In this document: positions 16,877 through 20,639 of the stretch, piece after piece
How the letters are laid out: the number at the start of each line of letters is the position of its first letter
How positions within the stretch are numbered: position 1 is the first letter of the stretch
NCBI RefSeq assembly: GCF_900100755.1
Contig: NZ_FNCI01000004.1
Span: 64,089 to 128,088 of the forward strand
Origin: Onishia taeanensis
GTDB lineage: Bacteria; Pseudomonadota; Gammaproteobacteria; Pseudomonadales; Halomonadaceae
DNA length: 64,000 nucleotides
Reading direction: 5' to 3'
Notes under the pieces: model-generated
What the model was told of the DNA's origin: nothing
Seen by the model: only the letters and a program-made list of their open reading frames with translations
The model's database searches: none
Position numbers and translations under genes: made by a program

Positions 16877-19615
16877 TCAGTTAAGCGTGCCGTGACACTG
16901 CTTGTACTTCTTGCCGGACCCGCAGGGGCAAGGCTCGTTACGCCCCACCTTGGGCCCTTCGCGGCGCACCGGGCGCCCATCGCCACCCTCAGCGGGCTGC
17001 TCGTCAGGCGCCTCAGCGGTGCCTGCCACCGCCTCGTCATGGCGGCTGGCGGCGCTGGCCTGCTCGCGCGCCAGCGTCTCACGGCGCTGCTGTTCGAGTT
17101 CCTCGACCTCTTCCTGACGACGCACCTGGACATGGCTCAGGATGCGCGTGATATCGGCCTTGATGTTGCTCAAAAGCCCCTGGAACAGCTCGAAGGCTTC
17201 GCGCTTGTATTCCTGCTTGGGGTTCTTCTGGGCGTAACCGCGCAGGTGGATACCGCGGCGCAGGTGATCCATCGACTGAAGATGCTCCTTCCAGCGAGTA
17301 TCCAGCACCTGCAGCATCACCTGCTTCTCGAAGCGACGCATCAGGGGTTCGCCGACGGCGGCCACCTTCTCCTCGTACAGCTTGCGGTGTGCTTCATGCA
17401 GACGCTCGCGCAACTGCTCTTCGCTCAGGCGGGCATCCTCGGCGGACCATTGCGTCACCGGGGTATCGAGGTTGAACTCGGACTTGAGGTGGCCCTCCAG
17501 CCCGCTCAGGTCCCACTGCTCGGGCAGGCTCTGGGGCGGCACGAAGTCGCTGATCGCCTCGTCCAGTACCTCATCGCGAATGCCCAGCACATTCTCGGTG
17601 ACTTCTTCCGCCTCGAGGATGTCGTTGCGCTGCTCGTAAATCACGCGACGCTGGTCGTTGGCCACGTCGTCGTATTCGAGCAGCTGCTTACGGATATCGA
17701 AGTTGCGACCCTCGACTTTCTTCTGGGCGCGCTCGACGGCATTGGAGACCATCTTGTGCTCGATGGCTTCACCCCGCTCGAGCCCCAGCGCCTGCATCAG
17801 CCGCTGAACCCGGTCGGAGCCGAACAGACGCATCAGGTTGTCTTCTAATGACAGGAAGAAGCGCGTCGAGCCCGGGTCACCCTGACGGCCGGAGCGACCG
17901 CGCAGCTGGTTGTCGATGCGCCGCGACTCATGGCGCTCGGAACCGACGACGTGCAGGCCACCGGCGGCCAGCACGGCATCATGACGTTCCTGCCAGGCGG
18001 CCTTGATGGCTTCAACCTTGGCCTCGTCGGGGTTGTCGAGTTCGGCGACCTCGGCCTCCCAGCTGCCGCCCAGCATGATGTCGGTGCCACGGCCGGCCAT
18101 GTTGGTGGCGATGGTCACCGCACCGGGGCGCCCGGCCTGGGCGATGATCTGGGCCTCGCTCTGGTGCTGCTTGGCGTTGAGTACGTTGAAGCTCATACCG
18201 GCCTTGCGCATCAGCCCGGCCAGGTACTCCGAGGTTTCGATCGAGGCGGTACCGACCAGCACCGGGCGACCGGCCTCGGTCTCGGCCTGTACATCCTTGA
18301 TGATCGCCTCGAACTTCTCTTCGGCGGTCATGTAGACCAGATCATTCTGGTCACGACGGATCAGCGGCCGGTTGGTGGGAATCACCATCACATCCAGGCC
18401 ATAGATCTGACGGAATTCAAAGGCCTCGGTATCGGCGGTCCCGGTCATGCCGGAAAGCTTGTCGTAGAGGCGGAAATAATTCTGGAAGGTGGTCGAGGCC
18501 AGCGTCTGGCTCTCGCGCTGCACGGTCACCCCTTCCTTGGCCTCGACCGCCTGGTGCAGGCCCTCGGACCAGCGGCGGCCCGGCATGCTACGCCCAGTAT
18601 GCTCGTCGACGATCACCACCTGGCCGTCATCGATGATGTAGTCGATGTCGCGCTGGTAGAGATGACGCGCCCGCAGCGCCGAATGCATGTGTTGAAGCAG
18701 GTTGAGGTTCTGAGCAGCGTAGAGGGAGTCATCCTCACCCAGCAGCCCTTCGCCGCGCAGCAGTGCCTCGACCTTGTGGTGCCCTTCCTCGGTAATCTCG
18801 ACCTGCTTCTGTTTCTCGTCGAGGATGAAATCACCAGTCGGCGGCATTTCATCGTCTTCGCTGTGCTCGCCTCGCACCAGGTCGGTCGCCAGGCGATCGA
18901 CCACCTTGTAGAGCTCGGTGTTCTCTTCCACCGGGCCGGAGATGATCAGCGGCGTGCGCGCCTCATCGATCAGGATGGAGTCGACCTCATCGACGATGGC
19001 GAAGTGCAACCCACGCTGAACCTTGTCCTCCAGTGAGAAGGCCATGTTGTCGCGCAGATAGTCGAAGCCGTACTCGTTGTTGGTGCCGTAGGTAATATCG
19101 CAGGCATAGGACTGGCGCTTTTCATCGGAATTCTGGCCGGAATAGATCGACCCCACCGATAGATCCAGGCTTTCATACAGCGGACGCATCCATTCGGCGT
19201 CACGGCGCGCTAGATAGTCATTGACCGTCACCACGTGCACGCCCTTGGCAGGCAGCGCATTCAAGTAAACGGCAAGGGTGGCCACCAGCGTCTTGCCCTC
19301 GCCGGTTTTCATCTCGGCAATGCGGCCGGTGTTCAGCGCCAGACCACCGATCATCTGGACATCGAAATGGCGCATGCCCATGACACGCTTACTGGCCTCA
19401 CGCACCACGGCGAAGGCCTCGGGCAGCAGGGCGTCGAGTGATTCACCCGCCGCCAGACGCTCGCGGAACTCGCCCGTCTTGGCGCGGAGGGCGTCGTCAT
19501 CGAGGGCCTCGAACTGCGCCTCCATGTCGTTGATCTTGGCAACGACCTTGCCAAAGCGTTTGACCTCGCGGTCGTTCTTGGAGCCGACCACTTTGCGCAA
19601 CAAATTATTGATCAT
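16877..19615 (-). CDS. secA: Preprotein translocase ATPase SecA
   Basis: SecA drives secretory proteins through SecYEG. The 912-residue protein has Walker A ([11 protein letters not shown] near residue 103), the DEAD-like [21 protein letters not shown] (~208), the preprotein cross-linking domain, NMAGRGTDI and [10 protein letters not shown] in the second ATPase half, and the C-terminal zinc motif [14 protein letters not shown] that binds SecB and phospholipid. The upstream 87 bases are highly structured and preceded by a small signal-peptide ORF ending in RGPP, suggesting SecM-style control. The gene's own ribosome-binding site is weak (GAG 12 bases, GGA 6 bases before ATG). Confidence 0.99.
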
Positions 19616-19702
19616 GAAACGTCCGTTCTCTACCCAGTATCCGAATTCGGCCCTGGTACCTCATCAGGCACGGGCCCACTAACCGCCCAGGGGGCGGGCA
19701 TA
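19616..19702 (-). promoter_or_regulatory. Structured secA leader, candidate arrest-controlled switch
   Basis: In the minus-strand RNA, CCGCCC/GGGCGG (19697-19683) forms a 6-bp hairpin starting 6 bases after the upstream ORF stop. GGCCC-GUGCCU pairs with AGGUAC-(CA)-GGGCC (19676-19649) as an 11-bp stem with a GAUG loop. An alternative pairing of UACCAG (from 19658) with CUGGGUA (to 19631, one bulged G) would use part of the second hairpin and hide bases next to the secA start region. Such mutually exclusive pairings are what a SecM-type switch needs, but the folding was done by eye only. Confidence 0.5.
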
Positions 19703-20047
19703 TCAGACGACTGGGCAAGGAGGGCCACGGCGGGTCAGCACATCATGAGCGGCGGCGGGAACCCGCACCACCTGAGGTGGCAGTGGACGATGCGGCAACT
19801 GAAGGCGCCAGCGGCGCAGCGGCCGCCAGCGGCGCTGGCTCGCCTGGCGGCGGCTTTCAGCGCGAATGACCGCCGGCGCCAGCCAACAGATATGCACCAC
19901 CCGTTCGACCAAGCGCACGCCATCGGCTTGCACCAGGCCCGCTGGCAACAGACAGCCCACCAGCAAGCCTGCCAACCACCAACGGGTGCGACGACGCGAG
20001 GCCGTATCGGCAGGCCGACTTGGGCTAGCGTTAGTAGAGCCGTTCAT
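19703..20047 (-). CDS. Candidate SecM-like secretion-monitor/arrest peptide upstream of secA
   Basis: A 114-codon ORF directly upstream of secA on its strand, 87 bases away. Residues 18-22 are RRRTR, 23-38 a hydrophobic core (WWLAGLLVGCLLPAGL) and 39-41 VQA, a textbook Sec signal peptide with likely cleavage after Ala41. The mature part is short, Arg/Trp/Pro-rich and unlike known enzymes. It ends R106-R107-G108-P109-P110 then four residues and stop. E. coli SecM also has a signal peptide, lies just before secA, and ends in its arrest motif (RAGP) plus four residues; RAPP-like arrest peptides are known upstream of Sec genes in other bacteria. No strong ribosome-binding site precedes the ATG. 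Function is inferred; the alternative is a spurious or unrelated secreted ORF. Confidence 0.6.
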   Translation of the reverse strand: MNGSTNASPSRPADTASRRRTRWWLAGLLVGCLLPAGLVQADGVRLVERVVHICWLAPAVIRAESRRQASQRRWRPLRRWRLQLPHRPLPPQVVRVPAAAHDVLTRRGPPCPVV

Positions 20048-20111
20048 GCTGTTGGAGGTCTCGCGGGCATGATAGATTGCCGGTTATCGATTGGCGTCAA
20101 AAGTGCAGCCC

Positions 20112-20615
20112 ATGAGTATAAAGGTTAAGCGTTTCCGCGCCCAGCCCGTCACGTCGCTGCTCGGCGGCCGTGGTGAACTCGGCGGCCTGATGCGTATGGC
20201 CAGCCTGATTGACCGGGCCCAGCAGGAACTGCGCGAACATCTTCCCGAGGAAGTCCGCGAACATGTGTTCGTGGGCGGCTACCGGGACGGCAAGCTGACC
20301 CTGATTACCGATCGCGCGGTCTGGCTCACCTGGCTGCGCTACGAACAGCCCCGATTACTGGAGCTGCTGAAACGTCGGCCGGAATTCGAGGCTGTGCTGG
20401 GCTTCACGCTCAAGGTCCGCCCGGTACGCCCGCCCAAGGCCCCGCCGCGCCATAGCAGGCGGCTTTCGACCAGTGCCGCCGGAGAAATTGCCAGCTGCGC
20501 CGAAGATACAGAAGATCCACGACTGAAACGCGCCCTCGAGCGCCTGGCCTCCCACGCCGACGACCACGATACGCCCAAGAACAGCGACACCGATAGCGAC
20601 ACGAACAACGACTAG
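20112..20615 (+). CDS. dciA: DciA-like DUF721 replicative helicase loader
   Basis: DciA is the ancestral bacterial protein that loads DnaB helicase in species lacking DnaC/DnaI. This 167-residue protein has the DUF721 domain at residues ~15-105 (LMRMASLIDRAQQELREHLPEEVREHVFVGGYRDGKLTLITDRAVWLTWLRY split across helices and strands) and a long polar, acidic C-terminal tail (DDHDTPKNSDTDSD). In Pseudomonas the homologue also lies between secA and lpxC. Here it is transcribed opposite to both, 64 bases from the start of the small secreted ORF. Confidence 0.9.
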   Translation: MSIKVKRFRAQPVTSLLGGRGELGGLMRMASLIDRAQQELREHLPEEVREHVFVGGYRDGKLTLITDRAVWLTWLRYEQPRLLELLKRRPEFEAVLGFTLKVRPVRPPKAPPRHSRRLSTSAAGEIASCAEDTEDPRLKRALERLASHADDHDTPKNSDTDSDTNND

Positions 20616-20639
20616 TCAGCCGGGCTAGCCCGCCCCGGA

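Follow-up and report, generated by a model that had tools for sequence, protein, structure and literature searches.

The window analysed here is a 64,000-nucleotide stretch of the Onishia taeanensis genome (contig NZ_FNCI01000004.1), in which a small open reading frame (ORF) precedes secA on the minus strand. In agreement with the first-pass annotation, translation of this ORF gives a 114-residue product that carries a Sec signal peptide and the tetrapeptide R107-G-P-P110, and its end is separated from the downstream secA by 87 nt. On the other side lies dciA (DciA, Pfam E 1.7e-10), which is transcribed divergently, making the ORF the first gene on its strand ahead of secA. We found no terminator-like site between the ORF and secA, the sole such site being located far upstream, at 20609-20622. 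The features of the locus are as follows:

16877-19615, minus strand: secA, the presumed regulated gene, 912 amino acids by translation
19703-20047, minus strand: upstream ORF of secA, predicted arrest peptide and candidate monitoring substrate, 114 amino acids by translation
19925-20047, minus strand: Sec-type signal peptide region, residues 1-41, from the sequence and the conserved RWWLAGLLVGCLLPAGL in relatives
19847-19897, minus strand: conserved middle segment VHICWLAPAVIRAESRR, residues 51-67, from the alignment of relatives, within a region of low dN (0.01-0.12)
19718-19744, minus strand: putative arrest core D102-VLTR-R107GPP110, with dN 0 in 10 of 12 pairs and R[G/A]PP in 110 of 110 loci
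19703-19737, minus strand: 5' arms of a long-range stem (19726-19737, 19712-19720, 19703-19708), within the last codons of the ORF from the arrest core onward, by computed folding
19615-19644, minus strand: 3' arms of the same stem (19639-19644, 19628-19636, 19615-19625), by computed folding

As read from the sequence, the signal peptide consists of the n-region RRRTR (residues 18-22), a hydrophobic h-region (residues 23-38) and VQA (residues 39-41). At the other end of the protein RGPP (residues 107-110) is followed by CPVV and the stop codon; none of the other small ORFs of the window has RGPP near its C-terminal end. The mature part is strongly basic, with 14 R/K vs 3 D/E in residues 43-106. 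In the genome we located only a single secD/secF pair and a single yidC.

The ORF at 19703-20047 is a real gene. Among the 58 relatives covered by the search, syntenic orthologues before secA were found in 31 of the 37 genomes of the same family, Halomonadaceae (E 1e-4 to 1e-73). The named relatives comprise Onishia, Halomonas, Chromohalobacter, Modicisalibacter, Vreelandella and further Halomonadaceae; Onishia taeanensis is the nearest. In six genomes of the family, representing four genera (L171, L173, L174, L175, L176 and L177), secA lacks such an upstream ORF, indicating that the ORF was lost or gained inside the family. The loci compared, 110 in number, include some genomes present in two collections and form 55 clusters below about 72% identity. 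The first-pass annotation had made its interpretation dependent on the conservation of the frame and of RGPP in close relatives. Both turned out to be conserved, the frame in the 31 genomes and the motif in every one of the 110 loci (RGPP in 106, RAPP in 4). Omega of the ORF, computed for 12 pairs, lies at 0.09-0.42, compared with 0.9-3.1 in the shifted forward frames. Taken together, the low omega and the universal retention of R[G/A]PP mean that the frame is under purifying selection and is more than a chance occurrence. It might still be argued that this is merely an open frame in GC-rich DNA, or that the real gene is the antisense frame at 19745-20128 on the plus strand, which is indeed open for 127 amino acids. 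However, the antisense frame has no family match in Pfam or NCBIfam, and the only antisense register with low omega is less constrained than the sense frame in every pair tested. With the orthologues, the motif and the sense-frame omega all contradicting it, we consider this reading refuted and its probability negligible.

Selection acts very unevenly along the protein. In the core, dN is zero in the large majority of the pairs, while dS ranges from 0.12 to saturation; dN of the signal and the middle part is 0.01-0.12, and the linker drifts, its dN reaching 1.1. The signal peptide represents the most conserved long stretch. The expectation of the first-pass annotation that the signal peptide and RGPP are kept while the middle varies is thus borne out for both ends but only partly for the middle, as drift is restricted to residues 68-100, and approximately residues 45-67, with VHICWLAPAVIRAESRR among them, are conserved. 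If 30-35 residues are assumed to reside in the tunnel, the VHICWLAPAVIRAESRR segment would be positioned just beyond the exit tunnel at the stall. By analogy, this segment is possibly a release-coupling element resembling the one reported in SecM.

In the diverse alignment, invariant columns include L25, L29, C32, L33, P35, R107, P109 and P110, with D102, V103, R106 and G108 being nearly invariant. The hydrophobic core and the P site are 49-152 residues apart (median 73, 109 loci). Judging from toeprints of the RQH family, the ribosome stalled by the window protein is predicted to hold Pro109 (19721-19723) at its P site and Pro110 (19718-19720) at its A site. In four loci (L026, L027, L105 and L108), the change of RGPP into RAPP is accompanied by the change of the preceding residue to Pro ([S/T]RRGPP to APRAPP or SPRAPP), and these shifts apparently took place in separate lineages. 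One of the four, L105, is closely related to L086, a locus that retains RRGPP; both have a stem between the core and the secA leader, its sequence being different in the two. We also considered a preference for GGT at the motif Gly as an anti-Shine-Dalgarno signature, but since it is only modest (19/52 vs about a fifth elsewhere) we dropped it as an argument. The tail past the motif comprises 2-16 residues in relatives. Consequently, the four-residue tail of the window protein is not a conserved feature, and the parallel with the exactly four residues left in E. coli SecM, drawn by the first-pass annotation, carries no weight. The sole exception to the short tail is L076 (Halomonas socia CKY01 chromosome), in which RGPP is not followed by a stop. 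A small indel relative to L010 and L110 brings the frame in phase with secA in this locus, so either an arrest peptide-SecA fusion is predicted or there is a sequencing error.

Halomonadaceae belong to what we take to be, following GTDB, the order Pseudomonadales. Within this order, secA was located by the SecA N-terminus in 154 of 156 genomes. We surveyed about 1 kb before secA in at least one genome from each of 45 further families (in one case the region was shortened by the contig end), and in none of these 45 sampled families did we find a signal-peptide ORF with a RAPP-like end just before secA. One frame was flagged in L141, but it ends at a distance of 351 nt and seems spurious. Several of the other families have long ORFs before secA, the ends of which, as read from the sequences, look like M23 peptidases. 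At this sampling, the arrest peptide is therefore confined to Halomonadaceae.

The first-pass annotation had likened the ORF to SecM, and one consequence of such a likeness, the sequestration of the secA Shine-Dalgarno by the codons of the arrest site, is supported by computed pairing, shuffles, recodings and covariation. The window mRNA folds with -74.8 kcal/mol (z -1.99), and in this fold the last codons of the ORF, arrest core included, are paired with the segment directly before secA. The secA Shine-Dalgarno region (GAGAACGGA, about 19622-19632) sits in the 3' arms. Relative to the predicted P-site codon, the paired bases on the 5' side span -9 to +20, and those on the 3' side span -29 to -5 relative to the secA start; a stalled ribosome would accordingly cover the 5' arms. 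Relative to spacer shuffles, the number of expected core-to-leader pairs is raised both in the window (17.1 vs 1.9, 0/50 shuffles) and across 52 diverged loci (6.2 vs 1.7, Wilcoxon p = 1.6e-5). Synonymous recoding of the last codons with the peptide kept fixed gives the same picture, with 22.4 expected pairs for the native codons vs 11.8 for the recoded ones in the window (0/60) and 7.0 vs 2.0 in the 52 loci (p = 5e-6), although these loci are related despite thinning, and both p values treat partly dependent loci as independent. About a third of the 52 loci have no excess of stem pairing, meaning that the RNA half of the system is not uniform in the family.

In the genus alignment, 92% of the cells are paired and five pairs have changed on both sides; the covariation score is matched by only 4 of 500 shuffles and is far above the slid controls. 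The changes on both sides are mostly found in inner hairpins, and one of them (A-U to C-G in the window) belongs to the core-to-leader stem proper. In a second Halomonas group, almost all sequences pair the segment following RGPP, CUGCGUGGGCA, with UGCCACACGCAG ahead of secA, whereas the peptides read from this segment differ in frame (AWAR, CVGTLNP, PCVGKLTS and FCVDMLNS). The retention of pairing in spite of different reading frames indicates that the tail in this group is kept as RNA and not as protein. When ribosome masking was modelled, the mean computed exposure of the secA start region increased modestly, from 0.41 to 0.47 in 109 loci and from 0.44 to 0.52 in the window. Accessibility in this calculation was averaged over -16..+3 of secA and the effect was weak, so we used the explicit core-to-leader pairing tests instead. 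Overall, there is strong evidence from computed pairing that the codons of the stalling signal also form an RNA lock, which would act on secA translation.

The signal peptide, the strongly basic mature part and the conserved middle segment are also what one would see if the ORF encoded an ordinary small basic secreted protein, the mature form of which is periplasmic and simply happens to end with RGPP. We regard this explanation as highly improbable. It leaves unexplained why there is almost no constraint on the linker when the last ten residues of the core are unchanged, and why the tail after RGPP varies in length and frame yet keeps its RNA. In addition, the gene keeps company with secA and is missing from the other sampled families of the order, and RGPP is a known stalling motif: in a 2025 study (PMC12992588) it was the strongest of the RAPP-like motifs and, in many phyla, the tetrapeptide avoided most. 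A different possibility is that the peptide does stall, yet serves only as a translational coupler, which sets a constant level of SecA through the RNA stem and senses nothing of export. Both the arrest core and the RNA stem are supported, and sensing is the inferred part of our interpretation; nevertheless, no other long stretch is as conserved as the signal peptide, and its distance from the arrest site fits Sec-monitoring substrates. Both points speak against mere coupling, which we consider very unlikely.

We thus propose with high confidence that the secA transcript begins with the ORF as a regulatory gene encoding a SecM-type monitoring substrate of the RGPP class, combining the stall, the stem and release by export. 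The earlier interpretation of a SecM-like arrest peptide before secA is then largely correct, with stalling and export release of the window protein proposed by analogy. In the mRNA free of a stalled ribosome, the stretch of codons that runs from the arrest core up to the stop would pair with the secA leader, including its Shine-Dalgarno, and this would lower secA translation. As the last codons are read, the nascent chain would stall the ribosome at Pro109 and Pro110 in the manner of published relatives. By occupying the arrest codons, the stalled ribosome would open the stem and allow secA to be translated, so that more SecA would be made while export is slow. When export is efficient, Sec would engage the signal peptide and, as in SecM, the pull on the chain would end the stall, returning secA to its basal level. 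We further lean, with some reservation, toward the broader view that Halomonadaceae built their own complete SecM-like circuit, in which the arrest codons double as the strand masking the secA Shine-Dalgarno, with an unchanging peptide core, a tail preserved as RNA and not as protein, and synonymous codons selected for their pairing.

In a major family of halophiles, secA is very likely under the control of a nascent-chain sensor, and this control bears on protein secretion in industrial Halomonas hosts. The 55 diverged cores and leaders provide a natural series of loci where one set of nucleotides evolves under both peptide arrest and RNA masking, and this makes the two constraints separable. 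The finding that none of the 45 other sampled families has such an ORF before secA lends support to the repeated emergence of RAPP-like sensors proposed in the literature.

Our search of the literature found nothing linking Halomonas to arrest peptides or to biological SecM. Regulators of this kind were already described in 2024, of which the first-pass annotation was unaware. In the study of Fujiwara et al. 2024 (PMC10987492), about 30,000 genomes were searched for ORFs with secretion signals before secA, secDF and yidC. One of the resulting groups, uA_RQH_Pseudomonadales, was defined by the order and the motif, with RGPP in the motif query list. Its R109GPP representative arrests in both E. 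coli and B. subtilis PURE systems (fAP > 0.9), and in the toeprinted RQH members the third residue of the motif is in the P site at the stall (PMC10987492). The group shares with the window ORF the position before secA, the signal peptide, RGPP near the C-terminus and, probably, the GTDB order Pseudomonadales. The window ORF encodes a small function-unassigned protein directly upstream of secA in the same orientation, with an N-terminal secretion signal evident from sequence and conservation, a RAPP-like motif near the C-terminus conserved in all loci and, across 109 loci, more than 30 residues between the signal and the motif. By the features compared, and leaving aside a match to any particular listed protein, it qualifies as a member of this published kind. 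Arg at position 109 in several relatives (L019, L020, L021, L075, L085, L087 and L102) is in line with a halomonad origin of the R109GPP representative. The sections of Fujiwara et al. 2024 (PMC10987492) considered here contain no RNA stem analysis for this group that we could find; the RNA stem and the family-wide anatomy are what the present analysis adds.

Other known systems share some of these features. ApdA, ApdP and ApcA are exported or membrane peptides that likewise have an arrest core of the RAPP/RAPG type close to the C-terminus, but they precede secDF or yidC2 instead of secA, and their authors claimed no overall similarity for these groups. VemP of Vibrio is also a Sec-monitoring arrest peptide, although it regulates secD2F2 and uses another arrest sequence. 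SecM of E. coli and Pasteurellaceae is also the first gene before secA and has a signal peptide, a C-terminal arrest motif and a stem hiding the secA Shine-Dalgarno, the last feature being present in the window as computed pairing. The median distance of 73 residues from the hydrophobic core to the P site in Halomonadaceae also resembles the short SecM class, for which Fujiwara et al. (PMC10987492) give 71. In contrast, the window protein has RGPP in place of RAGP, and its core DVLTRRGPP is devoid of FxxxxWIxxxxGI, having neither WI nor GI. The first-pass annotation had recognised no E. coli SecM homologue here, and rightly so: no match to a SecM family model was obtained in Pfam or NCBIfam up to E 1, and we reject SecM homology of the protein. 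By sequence the window ORF is not a SecM, and in its working it would be SecM-like.
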